Origin: Lanius collurio
Taxonomy: Eukaryota > Chordata > Aves > Passeriformes > Laniidae
NCBI GenBank assembly: GCA_020086605.1
Contig: JACBWW010000016.1
Span: 3,772,456 to 3,836,455, forward strand
Reading direction: 5' to 3'
Length of the DNA stretch: 64,000 bases
Below, piece after piece: positions 2,346 to 45,697 of the stretch; position 1 is the stretch's first letter; each line of letters begins with the position of its first letter. The notes under the pieces were generated by a model. It saw nothing but the letters and a program-made list of their open reading frames with translations, searched no databases and was not told where the DNA came from. The translations under genes were made by a program, and so were the position numbers.

Positions 2346-3788
2346 TAACTGAAGCATTGCAGACAGAAACTATTCTTCTACCTGATTGCTGGTTATTCTG
2401 GCCTGAGACTGTAGAAAATGAGTGAGCCCTTCCAGAACTGAATACAATATTTTTCAGACCATTTCTCCAATTTCTTGTATTAATCTATAAAGGTCATTTT
2501 GTCTGTAACACAATCACAAGTTTCACTTAACCATGCTTTATCAGACAATTTTTTAGGCAAGCTTTCTCTGCCAACATCCACATCTTTTAAGAAAACACCA
2601 ACCAGAGCAAAGCCAGGACAATCCCAAACCATAATCAAACCCCAGTTTGACAGAGAATCCCTGACAATTACTTTCTGAGCAGGATGACACAAGTTTTATA
2701 CCTGCTTTACGGTGGTTTCACATGGAATTTTCTCCTTTGTCAGTATATGAAAATGTTATTAAACACAAAATCTGACTGCAATTAGAATATCTGCTCCTGA
2801 CAGGTTTGTTCAGACTCCCACCAGTGGCTGTGGCCTGGCTTTGGGAGTTTGCTGAATACCCTCCTCTGCAGTTCCCCTGTCTCACTGTGCCACCAGTCCC
2901 ATATTGTCACTGAGCTGTAATAGCAGATGTCTGTCCCCCCCGTTGCCTCTGTGTCTGCTCATACCCTTCCCTCAGAGTCACATTGTCACAGCCATACTGC
3001 AAAAGGAATGACAGTTACTGAGAACCTCCAACTTCTCGCAATATTCAAAATAAGGTGCACGTTAAACATCAAACTGTAGCATGAGACATCTGATTATCAC
3101 TACTAATCAAGTGCATTCACACTAACTTATCAAAATGAACTTTACTTTGTTTAAAGCTTCCTTTCTTACAGTTCCAAGAGTCTGAATGACATTCTTACCC
3201 CATGGTATTTAAAAGTATTATAGGAAAACTCACTCAGTGCCTATGTCAGAAGCTGGAAGAAGCAGCAGCTCTCTGAGCATCTCTATAAAAACAATTGTGA
3301 ACCGTAGATTAAATGAATCCAAAATTGTGTTCTGTGCATAAGTCTTTTGGTGAACCTAAACACAAATGTGACACAAGGTCAGTAATTTCCTAATTAGTGA
3401 ATAAATGAGTTGAGGGAGAAGAAGGAAGTGATAAACATAAGTGACAAAAATAATGTCTGCTGCTAAAATTATCACAGAAATAAGCAGTTAAATCTCCTGA
3501 ACTCTATTTTCCCCTCATTAAATTTGGTCTAAATCAAAATCTCTTGCTCAAGAGCTGAAGAAAAAGCTTTAAAGAAAAAGTTTTACTAAATATTTTTTTT
3601 CCTGTCTATAGCACACTCAAAAATCTAGAGACACAGACTTCCATTAAGTAGAGAGAGCAAATGGAACAAAAAATACTTAACAAAATAAAGAAACAAGATC
3701 AAATTTTACATTTTTTCTATCTGCTTATTGAGATGTTTCTCTGAATGACAGTTTCTCTGAATGACAGTGACCATGAAAGAGTTGATCT

Positions 3789-35500: not shown

Positions 35501-37016
35501 GGAGATCAAGACTAATGTGAGCAACACACTTGTTTCACTGAAGTCTGCTTTACAATTTAGTTGCAACGCTTCAGAGAGCTCCGTCTCCCATCTCCAGTTT
35601 CTTGCTCCACTATAATTAGAACAAACTTCCTCATTAACTTCTGTAGTGTCACAACAGTGCAACTTCACGTGCCAGGAGGGAGGCTGTCAAAAATTCTTAA
35701 TGAGGTGCTTTCTTTGCAAGCCCAGCTAAATTCTAGACTTCAATCATTTCCATCTTCTTTATTTTCTCATGGACTGCCACAGATGTAACTCTTCCTTCTT
35801 AGTAAAGATTGCATTTTTCTGATCTATGATCAATTTATCATTATAGCAGCTAACATGAATTCTCTCTATGCTTTTTCCTTTATTTCAAGAACTGTCAGAA
35901 AACTAAAAGTTGACATTTTTCAGGAAGGAATCAATTAAAACTGTCAGGTGTCAACTAAGACAAACAATTCAAACTACATTTTATAAAAAAAATATACTAT
36001 AAAGAGGTGGTAGTGAACCTAATTTCTTCAGAAACATTTTAAGAAAATATTCAGACAATAACTCACATGAGAAAAAAAAATTTAAATAATTACTTAAAAT
36101 CTTTCTTCTTCAAGATGAACTGACTAAATACTGTGGATATTCTGCACATATCAGAAGCAGTCACCAAAGTTTTTTCTTCAGCAATGTCCATGGGGCAGGT
36201 ACAGGACTCAGAGTCTCATTCAGGCCCTCCAGGCAGTGGGATTGTATTTCCCTGCAGCTATCAGGAAAATAACTCAGAGGCTGATGGCAGAAACAGCAAT
36301 GGCATTGCTGGGAAGTCCAAGATGAAATGCAGAGATATTTTCAGGATATTACAGAGGGAGGTGAGGAACAACAGGATAGCCTCCTCCCAGTGAACATGGG
36401 GTCAGGGGAAAAAGTTCCTAAGATGTGGAGAAAAAAGCAGTGATGCTACCTTGGGTGTTGCCCTGCATAGAGAAGGCACCCGAGCCAATTTTCGGCAACC
36501 ACAGGCCACCCAGAACTGGAGCTGTGGGCTGACTTACTGCAGGGGGAAGCAGCCACACCTTCAGGCCACTGAGATCTTCAGGTGTTCAAGGCTCCACAGC
36601 TGAATCTGATCCTACAAACTGGTCTTGTTCTTACTTATGAAAGAAGCAAAACTAGAGAAAAGCCCTGCAGCAGTCTTCCTAGGTCTGTTTTTAAGTCTTG
36701 CTTTCTGCTTCTCAATCTGAGAGAATTCAAGCACTTTTCTGACCAGATAATCCTAAAACTTGTTAGGCATCAGGTTTATAGTACAGCAAATATTGCACGT
36801 TCCAGGAATCACTTCAGAGGGCAAGAGGGATGTCTATACAATGCAATTGCCACTTTCGAAGCTTACAAGGTGAACTGAAGGATTCTGAGCTGTGCAGAAG
36901 GAAAAGGAATTGGTGGTCTCGCTGATGATAAACAGTGGAAAATCAGATAAGGTACACTCAGTGCTGCTTCCTTTGTTGCCACAGGTACCAAAGCAGCAAG
37001 GAGTAAACTGCTGCAG

Positions 37017-37301
37017 TGTTGTAGTGCAGGGAATCTTTACAACAATATATAAGATAGCAAAGGACTTGGAAGGAAAAGATGAAGCGATATTTCTGTAGAT
37101 GTTCAGGGATTATTTTATTCCTCCAGCCGCATGGCTGGAGTTCCCAGGCAGACTCCTGGGACCCTGATCTCTCCCAGGCCCCAGGCACCCCCACCACCCA
37201 GTCAGGAACAGGTATGGGGCACACGTGACATGGGGACAGGGACAGACCCGTACCCTGCAGGGTCCCTCCCCCCGGGGATTTCAGGGGAAGGTACCTCCAC
37301 A
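37017..37301 (-). repeat. 3' LTR of the Y-box element
   Basis: 285 bp, matching 39200-39484 almost throughout. Shared landmarks on the plus strand are a CACGTG E-box (37222-37227), a perfect 8-bp hairpin with a GCAT loop (37121-37140), and TTTATT (37114-37119), which is AATAAA on the minus strand immediately beyond the hairpin. A hairpin next to a poly(A) signal is the usual layout of a retroviral R region. Confidence 0.9.
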
Positions 37302-37318
37302 ATTCACCCTTTCTTATT
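37302..37318 (-). other. Polypurine-tract-like sequence
   Basis: Reading the minus strand into the 3' LTR, the bases AATAAGAAAGGGTGAAT directly precede TGTGGAGG. The AAGAAAGGG core in this position fits a plus-strand primer site, though the five bases next to the LTR are not all purine. Confidence 0.5.
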
Positions 37319-37540
37319 AAATAAAATAACAGGGGAAATAGTTGGATAAACAACAAAACATCTTCAAAGGAAAGGAAGCTACTATCTTGAGTCCCTAAAT
37401 GTCCAAACAGATTTTCCTTGGAGCATCAGAAGGAAGACAGGACTTGAGCACACTTCAGATGGAAACGGAGGAAGGGATTGTCTTTTTTGTACCTGTTGGA
37501 ATCTTAGAAAATGACAGTTAATTTTTTCCCTCCCTCCTTT

Positions 37541-38107
37541 TCATCCCCCCATCGGCATTGCAAAGGGATTCATGGCAAATGGAAAAGCCTGGTTTTGTGA
37601 GGGGAACCAGAAAGGGAAATTTGGGCTGGGCATATATGGGGGATAAAGGGACATGGGATAAAAAGGGAAAGTGGTATAGGAGAAAGGATAGGGATTATGG
37701 GGATATTGTCTAGCATATCTACTGCCTTTGACAGGGACACCCACAGGGCCTGTAACACAGGAGGCCTGTGGGCCCTTCCTTCCTTGCATAATTTTAAATT
37801 CTACTCTTTCTCCTTCTTCTAAGCTTGGAACGTCACTTTTGGGGTTCTTTTTTACAATAGCAGATTTATGGACAAAAATACTTTCTCCAGTATCGTTTTT
37901 CAACAAGAAACCGTAATTTTTCTTTACATTATACCACTTTACAGTTCCAAAAACCCTAGCTGTGATAACCTTTTCATCTTTCCGAGTTCCTTTGTTCTTG
38001 CTTTCACTTTCAGTTTTTCTCGCTCTCACATCAGAGCTGCCACAGCCGGGACTGCTGGGGCCGGGGCCGCCAGCGCGTTCCTGCCGTGGGGTTTCGACTC
38101 CTCGGGA
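37541..38107 (-). pseudogene. Captured Y-box cold-shock-domain gene, intronless, N-terminus uncertain
   Basis: A minus-strand frame opens after a TGA at 38108-38110 and runs 188 codons to a TGA at 37541-37543. Its first part is Gly/Pro/Ser-rich, then a basic stretch leads into a complete cold-shock domain with GTVKWYN, an RNP1-like KNYGFL, the RNP2-like IFVH, GERVEF and VTGPVGVPVKGSRYA. These features are specific to Y-box proteins (YBX1, YBX2, YBX3), which bind and package mRNA. In YBX genes this domain is split by introns; here it is continuous, so it came through cDNA. The usual basic/aromatic tail is absent. Instead there are 54 residues with, by my count, 14 Pro, 9 Phe, 6 Tyr and 5 Met. 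There is no in-frame ATG before the domain; a neighbouring Ala/Pro-rich frame starting at 38343 ends at 38026, next to it, so a small indel may have separated the start. Called a pseudogene for that reason, although the domain itself is unbroken. Confidence 0.75.
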
Positions 38108-38776
38108 TCACGTGTGGGGCCGAGCGGGTCCGGTGTGGCCGTGCTGCTGCACGCTGACCCTGCCGGCTGCTCCACCTTTGGCCACCTCTGCACTGCCGCT
38201 TGGTGCCATGCTTGCTCCCCCTCTGGAGCTCCGTATGACTGCTCCACGCTTTCCGGGTGTTCACGCAGCTGCACGGCCGCGCCCTGTGAGGCGTTCGCCT
38301 GTGCGTGGCTTTGTACTGCCAGCACTGCCACTGCTGCTGTCACTGTCGGCGGCTGTGTGGCCGCTGGCTAGCACGGTTCCCTTCTCACCCCCGCGCTCCG
38401 GCTTGGCGTGGCTCACTGCGGTCGCCATAGCGACTGCCACAATCACCACTGCCTTTCTCAGTGTGGGGCTTGAACCCTCACTCGCCATGTGGCGCGGGGC
38501 GGCCATCACCGCGTCACACCTCGGCCGCCACCGCCCTCGCCGCTGCCTCAGGGCGAACACCCCCAGGCCCGCGCCACCGCGTCGCTCCTGGCTCCACTCC
38601 CACTGCCTCCGGTCTCCCCGCCGGCTCTGCTCCCGCCGTGCCTGGCCTCACTGGCTCTCCCACGTGCGGGAGCTCCCTCGCCGCCGCCCGCAGTGCACTC
38701 GGTGCCCACGGCTGCCCGGTCTCCAGGGTGGCGGAGGAGCCCACTGCGACGCGCGCGCTGCTCGACCACGTGGTCG
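38108..38776 (-). other. GC- and CpG-rich segment 5' of the Y-box frame
   Basis: A sharply GC-rich block inside an AT-rich intron, with overlapping Ala/Pro/Gly/Arg-rich frames on both strands (for example minus 38261-38560 and plus 37962-38783). Most are composition artefacts. Its left end abuts the cold-shock frame, and Y-box genes have CpG-rich first exons, so it is probably captured 5' UTR and N-terminal coding sequence. It ends at a perfect 14-bp palindrome, CGACCACGTGGTCG (38763-38776), with an E-box at its centre, beyond which the sequence is AT-rich again. Confidence 0.5.
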
Positions 38777-38799
38777 CTGCTGATACAGTAGCGGGACAC

Positions 38800-39099
38800 A
38801 GCTGATATTGCTCAGCAGTCTCTGAAATCAGGTAATATTCACGGAAATAGTCCTGCATCGGCATATTTTTGATTCGGAAATTAACTGTGTCCAAACATTC
38901 TTCCAAAAGTCCTTGGTAAGAATTAAATCCCAAGAAACATAGAAGAAGTTTTTAAACAGCCATGCCAAAATTTTCTTAATTCTTTCTGAGCTTGAATTAA
39001 GCTAAAATCTACATATTGCTGTTCCAGAACCTTTTTTAATTTAAGGTAAATGTCTCTTTGTGGTTCGGACAGCCATGAGTCCTTCCATGAGTCCTCCAT
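38800..39099 (-). pseudogene. Degraded gag matrix-like remnant
   Basis: Between the 5' LTR and the GC-rich block a minus-strand frame starts with ATG at 39099 and stops after roughly 58 codons; a neighbouring frame remains open further on. The composition (alternating Leu/Lys, Trp/Phe clusters, spacing of helices) recalls the N-terminal matrix region of avian and betaretrovirus-like Gag. The resemblance is weak and by eye. It is frame-broken and far shorter than any gag gene. If correct, capture of the cellular sequence occurred just downstream of the start of gag, the usual site in transducing retroviruses. Confidence 0.4.
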
Positions 39100-39179
39100 C
39101 ATTCAGAGATGGGACATCAAAACGAAAGTAAGAAGATATATCGAGAGTTACTCACGAATTATCTTCTCCAGGGATTGTT

Positions 39180-39197
39180 TGCCCTCATTCTCCACCA
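39180..39197 (-). other. Primer-binding-site-like 18-mer
   Basis: Two bases after the end of the 5' LTR the minus strand reads TGGTGGAGAATGAGGGCA. TGG at this position is the mark of a tRNA-primed site. I could not match the remainder to a tRNA 3' end from memory, so the primer is unassigned. Confidence 0.35.
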
Positions 39198-39199
39198 TT

Positions 39200-39484
39200 T
39201 GTTGTAGTGTGGTGAATCTTTACAACAATATATAAGACAGCGATGAACGTTGGAAGGAAAGATGAAGTGATATTTCTGTAGATGTTCAGGGATTATTTTA
39301 TTCCTCCAGCCGCATGGCTGGAGTTCCCAGGCCGACTCCTGGGACCCTGCTCTCTCCCAGGCCCCAGGCACTCCCACCACCCAGTCAGGAACAGGTGTGG
39401 GGCACACGTGACATGGGGACAGGGACAGACCCGTAACCTGCAGGGTCCCTCCCCCTGGGGATTTCAGGGGAAGGCACCTCCACA
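39200..39484 (-). repeat. 5' LTR of the Y-box element
   Basis: 285 bp, same TG...CA ends as the copy at 37017-37301. The E-box is at 39405-39410, the hairpin at 39304-39323 and the minus-strand AATAAA at 39297-39302. Differences from the partner are concentrated near positions 39210-39255; the GC-rich part is nearly identical. Confidence 0.9.
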
Positions 39485-39701
39485 CTGAAGGACCTGCAAA
39501 ATAACTGCGTATAGACACACTCAAAGATCAGTGCCCACATGGACAGCAGCATGAAGCAGGAAACTAGGATAAACCATTAAAGGATAAAGCAGTTATAGAA
39601 AATAGGTGGTATTTATAAAATCATTTTAAAATTTGCCTTTTCCAGTGGTGTATGCAGTGTTTGGCTTGACATCAATCTGTGCTCCTTAAATGAGTCCCAA
39701 A

Positions 39702-39734: not shown

Positions 39735-40747
39735 CCTTGTTCAACTCAACAGCCCAACAGCTCTTGGGACATGGTGGATGGTGTTTAGCACAAACAGAGC
39801 AGCTGCATTTTGCAGGTGATGTCAGGGAGAGCAACAGGTCACAGTTTGCTAAAGTGAAAAAAGAAAACCACAGACTTCCTGTGCTGGTCATTTGATGTAC
39901 TTTTACTAGGACAAAATCAGTCTATAGATTTATGGCCACTTTACTGCTGTTGGAAAGAAACTGTAGCCTCACAGGCTGGAGTTATCAATGCATCTCATGA
40001 TAACAGATTTGTGTGTGACTGACTGGATTTCTCCTTGAACTACACAATTCTTATTTGGATTCAGCCTGTAACAGAAAAAAATTCCAATAAGATGGCTGTA
40101 AATCCTCTATGAAATAAACTCAGCACATATCTGGGCCTTTTAATAAAGTAAATGGCTTTTCTTTGGCTGCTCACTATTATCCCTATATGCCCCCAAACCT
40201 TTCAAAATAATTCTGACATGGATTAGGACTACTCAAGCCAATCGTTACCACAGCAAATGGTTTTGATCTGGGGACAGTAAATCTGGATGGCATGGATCAG
40301 ATGTTCTTACCGGGAATGAAGTGATAACCTTGTGAGTGGTGTCAGGACTCAGGATCCAGAGAATTCTCCGGCAAAAGCTCCAGTGCACACGAGCAGCTGC
40401 AGAATTCCCGGCAAGCCCCGCATGTGGCAGGGAAGGGAAGTCTCCGGGGTTTGTTGATCCCTGTGTTTTAAAGCCTGCGTTGATATCTCTGTCTGAAGAC
40501 GCACCCAGAATCGTTCCTGAGCAAGTGCTGGAGTGAAGGCGGATTAATCCTTGGTGCCCAGCCACAGAGGCAGGCAGGCTCCTGCCTCCAGAGCACCTCA
40601 GGCTCCCACAGCCCAGGGACACATCCCGAGCTTTCCCACAGCAGTGCCTGAGGAAGCGCTCGCTGCCTCTCTCACGCCTGCTGCCATCGCTCTGCCAGCG
40701 CCGCGGCTGCATCTTCTCTGTGCCTGGTCTGCTCAGCCCTGGCGCCC

Positions 40748-41103
40748 GTGGCCACACCGCTCGGCCCGTGGCCACGCTGCTCGGCCCGTGGCCACGCCGC
40801 TCGGCCCGTGTGGCCACACCGCTTGGCCCATGCAGCCACACTGCTCGGCCCATGCAGCCACACCGCTCGGCCCGTGGCCACACTGCTCGGCCCATGCAGC
40901 CACACCGCTCGGCCCGTGGCCATACCGCTCGGCCCATGCAGCCACACTGCTCGGCCCGTGCAGCCACACCGCTCGGCCCGTGCAGCCACACCGCTCGGCC
41001 CATGCAGCCACACCGCTCGGCCCGTGGCCACACCGCTCGGCCCGTGGCCACACCACTCGGCCCGTGGCCACACCGCTCGGCCCGTGGCCATGCCGCTTGG
41101 CCC
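40748..41103. repeat. GC-rich minisatellite with 20- and 22-bp units, 17 copies
   Basis: By hand I count nine 20-bp units of the form GTGGCCACACCGCTCGGCCC and eight 22-bp units that begin ATGCAGCC, GTGCAGCC or GTGTGGCC, totalling 356 bases exactly. The units interleave rather than forming two blocks. Because neither length is a multiple of three and the unit lacks stop triplets, several long frames are open on both strands; they are not genes. Confidence 0.92.
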
Positions 41104-41957
41104 ATGCGGCCACGTGGCCGCACACCGCAGGGGTAGCTCAGCTCAGCCATGCTCATGTCGAGCACACAGGAGGAGGAGGAGGCCCTGTGCATTTGGCTCC
41201 ACCTTCCTTTGACACTTGGCACACGTGGAAATGGTCATTGCAGCAAATCCCTAGTGCTCCCTCTTATCAAATAACCATCTGGGAGACAGCTTGCTCAAAG
41301 ATAAGCAAGCATACACTGGGTTAGTAAATGCCTTTGAGCTCCAACTGCTGAACTGGGCCCTCCTTATCCAAAATGTTCCTCTACAAAGCGGATCAAGGAC
41401 CCAAAGCAGAACAATAAATCTATTTCCTTAACCAAATGAAAAGCAAAACCCAGAGCTACAATGAAATGTCACTCTATTCATTGATTTATTTTATGCAATC
41501 TAAATATTCTAAATAATTTTAATTTAATAATTAAAATAACCCTAGAAAAATTAATCAATTTTGATGTGAAACCACCAGTGAAAAGCCAAAAGACTTGACT
41601 TTAGAAAAAGACAAAGATTTTTTGCCTGCATTTTCTTCTATCTTTGCAGAGGAAGCTATCCTCTACATGAAAACTAAATTAAATAATTTTTTTTTCCATT
41701 TAAAAAAATTTTGCCAAAATAAACTTGTCTTGCTCCAGCTGACATCCAAAGTTATATAAATAGAACATTCTACATAAAATAACTTAGTGAGAAGCAGATA
41801 GGCCTTCCAATGGTAGCAAACTTTATTTTGTTGGTATCATCTTGCCATCAGCATCCATTATCACCAAGGAGGAAGCTTTTACTGGCAAACCCTCTATATT
41901 AGGGGCTGAGGAATTCTTAAAACTGTTATGTCACCAACTACCTTCTAAAAAGGCTCA

Positions 41958-45000: not shown

Positions 45001-45481
45001 TGTGTATATAAATATTCACATAAATTTCACTCCTCCAGCAAGATAAACAGAATTGTGACTCAATATATATTTAAATTAGCTCACGTTTAATTTGCAGGAG
45101 CAAAGATCAGCAATAGCGTGCTCAAAAGCAAATTAGGAATAATAAATTGTTATTGAAGTGATTAAATATTTGCTGAATTACTACTGCAGCCCACAGACAT
45201 ATGAACTTACAGGTCATTTTCAAGGTAAGGAAGATGTCAAAAGGAGTGGGTCCTCACATGAAATTCATCCAGCTCTGCCTTGAACAATAAGCATTTTCTG
45301 AGGAGCCCAAAGAATGAAATCTGGAGGGGTTAATACCCTACCAGTAAAAGGTGCTTCAGCAGTAGCTCACCTGTGCAAAGCCCTGTCCACAGAATGGTTT
45401 CTGTTCTCCTTCCGGGGCAGCCCAAGTGTGTCTCAGCCTTCTCTGGACAGAATTACATTGCAATTATCTCAATCCTTGCAG

Positions 45482-45697
45482 CTGACAGCTGGCCTGATCT
45501 CGAGCATATTCACCTCCATCGGCTCGGTGACGCTGGTCCTGCTGCTGGTGCTGTCCTTGGCCATGGTGGTGCTGGCCGTGACGGCCACCAAGCGCGCCAC
45601 GCAGGGCACCTACAGCCCCAGCCGGCAGGAGAAGGAGGGCTCCCGGGTGGAGATGTGGAACATGGTGCAGCCACCGCCCATGGAGAGACTGATCTAG
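45482..45697 (+). CDS. CRB1: CRB1 terminal exon: transmembrane helix and PDZ-binding tail
   Basis: 216 bp, on a codon boundary, ending TAG. It codes 71 residues: a short extracellular piece, a membrane helix rich in Leu/Val ([19 protein letters not shown]), then a 37-residue cytoplasmic tail starting at about [19 protein letters not shown] and ending [13 protein letters not shown] is the FERM-binding region and the C-terminal ERLI is the Crumbs PDZ ligand for PALS1 and PAR6. Both are intact. Canonical CRB1 encoded in this window totals 1013 residues across seven exons in one continuous frame. The exon is GC-rich compared with its surroundings. Confidence 0.97.

Follow-up and report, generated by a model that had tools for sequence, protein, structure and literature searches.

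Captured genes in retroelements and the Lanius collurio element

To our knowledge, most host genes captured by retroelements control growth or encode surface proteins, or are passengers that do not last. We examine here a long terminal repeat (LTR) element in a 64,000-nucleotide stretch of the Lanius collurio genome (contig JACBWW010000016.1; the whole stretch is called the window below). The element, at positions 37017–39484, carries a Y-box cold-shock domain (CSD) and lacks pol and env. We think it fairly probable that it represents an old non-autonomous LTR family that has kept one gene, in which a Gag-like N-terminal domain is fused to a captured Y-box CSD, and that this gene serves the element. 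What such a family would add to the known captures is an RNA-binding host domain joined to a Gag-like domain, found in two bird lineages and apparently kept under selection while the family multiplied to a large size.

The closest described systems share some of these properties. The avian acute transducing retroviruses of the gag-myc type resemble the element in that they keep their LTRs, have lost pol and env, place host sequence behind a Gag-like N-terminus and, by inference, depend on a helper. The element differs from them in being endogenous, amplified, old and common to two bird lineages, and its cargo is an RNA-binding Y-box rather than a growth-control gene; a Gag origin of its own N-terminus is no more than suggested. 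Among endogenous retroviruses (ERVs), CrocERV29 carries KIT-ligand and CrocERV31 carries nectin3. Like the window element, these are endogenous and hold a captured host sequence with signs of selection; according to the excerpted account (PMC4299795), their cargo is host mRNA and evolves under purifying selection. In that account CrocERV29 kept all its ERV domains when it took up KIT-ligand, and in CrocERV31 nectin3 stands in place of env, whereas the window element has neither pol nor env and joins its cargo to the one other domain that it encodes. A further songbird insertion, the 2.25-kb ERVK element corCorLTRK1b near crow NDP, is similar in total length and has a 296-bp LTR (PMC7341801, in excerpt). 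We do not identify the element with it: the best sites for the two insertion-side primers given there differ at 4 and 5 of 20 bases in the loci compared, and we treat the likeness as a coincidence of size.

Precedents for the cargo come from host YB-1. The Gag protein of mouse mammary tumour virus (MMTV) meets YB-1 in foci that contain RNA, and fewer particles are produced when YB-1 is knocked down (excerpted review, PMC6797609); YB-1 also binds stem-loop 2 of the packaging signal of human immunodeficiency virus 1 (HIV-1) (PMC11768693, likewise in excerpt). We treat the MMTV and HIV-1 cases, as far as these excerpts go, as analogies for RNA binding by the element. No Y-box or cold-shock LTR element is described in the titles and abstract openings of the papers listed, up to 20 per search; Repbase, Dfam and most subscription journals lie outside that scope, and the repeat may therefore already have a name. 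None of the terms looked up in PMC6523648 was found in its available text, and the excerpts of PMC11009239 and PMC4299795 mention no Y-box or cold-shock element.

Structure of the element

The element is 2,468 bp long and its sense strand is the minus strand, which corrects the sequence-only reading. Its 5′ LTR (39200–39484, minus) and 3′ LTR (37017–37301, minus) are each 285 bp long, have TG..CA at their termini, and are 93% identical in an ungapped and 94% in a gapped comparison. The insertion is bounded by CTGCAG (37011–37016) and CTGAAG (39485–39490), a target duplication whose two copies agree at 5 of 6 bases. A polypurine tract, AAGAAAGGGTGAAT (37302–37315, minus), abuts the 3′ LTR, and the 18-nt primer-binding site TGGTGGAGAATGAGGGCA (39180–39197, minus) lies two bases inward of the 5′ LTR. 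The paired LTRs with their TG..CA ends, the likely 6-bp duplication, the purine tract and a site starting with TGG had all been proposed from the letters alone, and each has held up; the last is the complement of the tRNA-Ala(AGC) 3′ end with 1 mismatch in 18. Also borne out is an interior without pol or env, since the full-length frame described below takes up most of it and leaves no room for either. By its 6-bp duplications, the element is ERV class II-like (ERVK).

The primer assignment was examined across the family, using a reference that we take to be the sequence of tRNA-Ala(AGC) and that ARAGORN types as Ala-AGC. The tRNA 3′ end with its discriminator base occurs at 6 genomic sites, 5 of them within 80 kb of one contig, and a reversed-sequence control occurs at none. 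The complement is free of mismatches in the fetched loci L031, L061, L063, L064 and L070. Among the 37 leaders listed, all having the motif and no more than 8 mismatches and including the probable allelic pairs L026/L027 and L069/L070, an ungapped count gives 5 exact sites, 11 with 1–2 mismatches and 21 with 6–8, the last class being mostly due to a one-base insertion.

A mobile family in the L. collurio genome

The window element belongs to an old, amplified mobile family. In an LTR search of the bird's own 1.097-Gb genome, all 40 scored matches (the best 40 of 3,464 first-look candidates) were at least 88% identical, and in a CSD protein search all 150 scored matches (the best 150 of 1,753) had E ≤ 2.5e-81; these candidate numbers are not copy numbers. 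Thirty-eight of the LTR matches lie beyond the window's own two, and the 20 regions that were fetched span 21 of the 38. The CSD interior is present at 12 of the 20 fetched loci, 11 of them independent: L026 and L027 share flanks and target duplication on two contigs and were counted as one insertion. The same is seen in L069 and L070, so the assembly probably holds allelic duplicates and copy counts are slightly inflated. The other 8 fetched loci hold the LTR alone, and four of these (L013, L014, L019 and L024) have perfect duplications and are solo LTRs.

The duplications differ from locus to locus. Their two copies agree at all 6 bases in L010, L023 and L026/L027, at 5 of 6 in the window, L012, L017, L018 and L025, and at 4 of 6 in L016; each of six further copies chosen for their long frames (see below) has a perfect 6-bp duplication. 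Several copies showing one LTR/Y-box layout and distinct duplications are thus present, which was the check proposed with the sequence-only reading for a mobile family, and a one-off capture is ruled out by the genome-wide LTR and CSD matches. Two other ways of producing the layout had been named beforehand, namely LTRs from unrelated insertions, and a Y-box retrocopy that landed by chance inside an unrelated LTR pair, bringing a poly(A) tail and a duplication of its own. The constant place of the CSD from one copy to the next, in an arrangement that many copies repeat, excludes both. We give such chance nesting practically no weight: the full copies fetched share this interior in this position, a constancy that refutes an independent retrocopy, and nothing was found in its favour.

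Two loci are arranged differently. L060 is a full copy nested in the CSD region of another copy, the halves of which overlap by 6 bp. L015 has, at 2900–3285, a family LTR and purine tract with an unrelated interior upstream; it could be another element that shares the LTR, and no pol-like frame was seen on reading its listed frames.

A CSD search aimed at the host YBX genes scored 150 matches at 56–74% identity (150/150; the best 150 of 1,304 candidates), several of which are known element copies, and no host YBX exon was recognised among them. The donor gene could be YBX1, YBX2 or YBX3. The family is a multi-copy source of Y-box-like proteins in bird genomes and may confuse annotation.

The fusion protein

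The window copy encodes a YBX-type CSD of ∼91 amino acids (aa) at 37709–37981 on the minus strand, with the PF00313 core at 37748–37948. The match to PF00313 has an E value of 4.4e-20 and scores 71.8 bits against a curated cut-off of 27; the closest solved structures are YBX1 and YBX2 (E ∼1e-29, over an alignment of 90 aa). The sequence-only reading of a complete Y-box domain within the interior is confirmed by these matches. The CSD frame (37541–38107, minus, 188 aa) is open and runs through a Pro/Tyr/Phe-rich C-terminal tail to its stop (37541–37708, minus). No intron breaks the CSD in any of the copies read.

Upstream of the CSD lies another coding domain, which the sequence-only reading had overlooked. 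In the window copy the frame is broken upstream of the CSD, both in a GC-rich linker rich in Ala, Pro, Gly and Arg (approximately 37982–38769, minus), which varies among copies, and in an N-terminal domain (approximately 38770–39102, minus) that occupies the position of a Gag matrix. In other copies this domain and the CSD lie in a single open frame, and the family's full protein of ∼505 aa consists of the N-terminal domain, the variable linker, the CSD and the Pro/aromatic tail. Among the matches listed in the CSD search of the genome there are 7 places with frames of at least 500 aa, 6 of which were fetched; the two CSD genome searches combined give at least 12 places with stop-free frames of that length, 6 of which were read. 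The six copies fetched for their long frames all have open frames of 504–509 aa, with a conserved N-terminal domain of ∼110 aa and a linker of 240 aa.

The CSD retains the residues expected of a nucleic-acid-binding domain. The W, F, F and H that we take to be its binding residues are intact in the window copy. Together with a Y, in the order W, Y, F, F, H, they are kept in 11, 11, 10, 10 and 11 of 11 LTR-chosen copies, in 26, 27, 28, 29 and 29 of 29 copies chosen by CSD score, and in 6/6 long-frame copies. The element protein is thus like YBX1, YBX2 and YBX3 in having a CSD with Y-box-type extensions and, in the window copy, the W, F, F and H. It differs from them in its Pro/aromatic tail, in its N-terminal domain and in being encoded by an LTR element. 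The alternating basic/acidic islands that we presume to be characteristic of host Y-box protein tails were absent on reading of this Pro/Tyr/Phe-rich tail.

Relatives in crow and older lineages

A database search with the full-frame protein led to the New Caledonian crow proteins P0001, P0002 and P0003. P0001 (440 aa, 24 cluster members) is 45% identical over 98%; in all three, the N-terminus and CSD align well with the long frame and the linker poorly. Searching the protein database with the 188-aa window frame yielded nothing (0/25 candidates scored), and the one further protein brought in by a profile search was P0006, a CSD protein of 229 aa; the best 7,985 and 7,987 word-sharing candidates were scored in the protein database searches. 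Viral contigs gave one match, which fell on a CSD within a viral record of 76 kb.

The best match of P0003 in the window bird's genome is 63% identical (among 111 scored candidates), so that this bird and the crow are probably not closely related. The same search led to older lineages, of which six loci, L065–L070, were fetched, each with a 5′ and a 3′ repeat of 206–303 bp lying ∼2.2–2.3 kb apart. CSD and tail are present in 6/6; the N-terminus is divergent (26–34%) in five and none was seen in L068. In L068–L070 the polypurine tract reads AAAAACAAAAGGGTGAGA. A CSD tree of 23 selected sequences separates 18 element CSDs from YBX1, YBX2, P0004 and P0005 (support 0.933), on a short alignment of ∼88 columns and with modest support overall. 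Within it, crow lineages and those of the window genome interleave: P0003 groups with L065/L066 (0.887), and P0001/P0002 with L067 (0.905). Because of this interleaving, the capture of the Y-box probably predates the split of the crow from the bird of the window.

P0003 itself looks mosaic. Its N-terminus resembles the window lineage and its CSD and tail resemble L065/L066, which suggests template switching between lineages.

Selection and age

Comparisons among copies point to constraint on the protein. In the six long-frame copies, which had been selected for open frames, the ratio of nonsynonymous to synonymous change (dN/dS) is 0.28 in the CSD, 0.48 in the N-terminal domain, 0.55 in the tail and 0.68 in the linker. 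For a comparison by codon position we used 11 LTR-chosen copies for the CSD and 9 of these 11 for the N-terminal domain, L011 (partial) and L027 (duplicate) having been excluded beforehand, and called a change shared when it occurs in two or more copies. In the CSD, shared changes number 7/3/15 at codon positions 1/2/3, against 25/26/20 for private changes (one-sided Fisher p 0.005; N-terminal domain plus CSD, 0.010; the tests are uncorrected and take sites as independent). For the 29 CSD-chosen copies, a sample in which choice by protein score introduces a bias, p is 0.011. Since shared changes stem from active ancestors and private changes are mostly post-insertion, the protein seems to have been constrained while the element moved, and the pattern indicates that it was under selection during the amplification. 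The proposal that the cargo might be useful to the element, made when only the window was in view, stands as regards these signs of selection; a function in RNA packaging remains something that we infer.

This selection might also have acted on the host's behalf. Some copies, for example those of the 24-member crow cluster, could now be domesticated host genes under host-level selection, and the crow copies are indeed listed as proteins. The signal, however, lies in changes common to dispersed, LTR-flanked copies, that is, in changes made before insertion, and private changes look neutral; domestication is therefore a very improbable source of it.

The Kimura two-parameter (K2P) distance between the two LTRs of the window element is 0.074. 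It ranges from 0.049 to 0.110 in eight other LTR-chosen copies and from 0.017 to 0.095 in the six long-frame copies, the latter over ∼230 alignable bases. Bird neutral rates are 2–3.3e-9 per site per year; at such a rate the window insertion would be roughly 11–18 million years old, and the youngest copy seen a few million.

Proposed role of the fusion protein

The favoured reading, a Gag-like domain fused to a Y-box CSD in the service of the element, can be put as a cycle. Element RNA would be transcribed from the LTR, with tRNA-Ala priming reverse transcription, and the enzymes of a helper ERV would reverse-transcribe and integrate it; dependence on a helper is most likely. No candidate helper emerged; within the fetched flanks of about 3 kb, reading for pol covered the frames of L015. 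The fusion protein is predicted to bind and chaperone the element RNA through the CSD. The N-terminal domain might then bring this RNA into helper particles or assembly granules, and in this way the captured gene would serve the element. A more specific version, which we offer tentatively, is that the CSD took over the nucleocapsid's job, so that a minimal Gag would be built of a domain resembling matrix, a basic linker without order, and the CSD, and would select element RNA for helper particles. If so, an LTR element would have recognised RNA by a captured host cold-shock domain, with no zinc knuckles, from a time before the lineages of the crow and of the window bird diverged. Because betaretrovirus Gag recruits host YB-1 for assembly, as the excerpted account has it, an element with a Y-box of its own opens two questions to direct test: can RNA binding of this sort substitute for nucleocapsid, and by what means do elements lacking pol compete for helpers?

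A selected fusion protein could instead act on the host, as a germ-cell Y-box mRNA-masking, translation, stress-granule or anti-silencing factor that favours expression of the element and has no part in packaging. The dN/dS and codon-position evidence fits this too, and among solved structures the CSD of P0003 is closest to YBX2 (143.9 vs 138.7 bits), the germ-cell Y-box protein. The YBX2 ancestry is weak, however, as other lineages show YBX1-like residues at the same sites. The tail lacks the islands presumed for host Y-box proteins, and the N-terminal domain is conserved as a unit of its own, whose placement, like that of a Gag matrix, is suggestive. On balance we regard action on the host as unlikely.

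Several results weigh against a Gag-like fusion protein kept for the element's benefit, the first being the state of the copies. Frames of at least 450 aa at the CSD occur in 0/13 LTR-chosen copies (window included), 0/29 copies chosen by CSD score (L030–L058) and 0/6 older-lineage copies, and a stop falls within the CSD match in 7/13 LTR-chosen and 7/29 CSD-chosen copies. Most copies examined have thus decayed, and only among those picked for openness are there intact frames. In the tail, moreover, shared and private changes are distributed alike by codon position (p 0.62). Such decay is what would be seen if the Y-box were a passenger without a role and a helper mobilised the element by its cis signals alone (LTR, primer site, leader and purine tract). 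Cis signals are retained, and neither the window copy nor any other copy read that was not picked for long frames has the full frame. We nevertheless find a passenger quite improbable, given a frame open over 504–509 aa in all six long-frame copies (although chosen for that), crow proteins of the same architecture, shared changes that are biased by codon position even where the LTR was the sole ground of choice, and a dN/dS that is lowest in the CSD.

The identity of the N-terminal domain is the second difficulty. It has no match in Pfam up to E 10, including Gag_p10 (PF02337), and none in the PDB. A genome search for Gag_p10 gave five matches among 20 scored candidates; hhalign of the N-terminal domain against one of these domains gave P 0.07, and when nine N-terminal sequences were compared with the five, 136 of 300 column shuffles did as well. 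A structure model of a crow protein predicts helices at the N-terminus, but with a predicted local distance difference test (pLDDT) score of 35 the model is unreliable and too poor for a fold search. After five older-lineage N-termini were added, a collinear match beat 150/150 shuffles at an hhalign probability of only 12%, and the older-lineage N-termini alone stood above 149/150 shuffles at a probability of 2%; this positive result came only with that addition. We therefore call the domain matrix-like by its position and a weak profile similarity, which is suggestive. One of the five Gag_p10 matches, L074, is unlike the other four and, on visual comparison, closer to the N-terminal domain of the element, which makes it a possible lead to the origin of that domain; in a single hhalign comparison it did no better than the others.

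Host context

The element lies within a host gene on the plus strand (7609–45697), which we presume to be CRB1 and of which two of the frames tested are laminin-G and EGF exons. The last frame, 45302–45697, has no Pfam match and was assigned to this gene by its ERLI end, which we take to be that of the host protein. Placed antisense between host frames at ∼21.0 and 45.3 kb, the element is apparently intronic. A repetitive GC-rich, minisatellite-like stretch with several open frames on both strands lies 0.8 kb from it, at 40245–41234.

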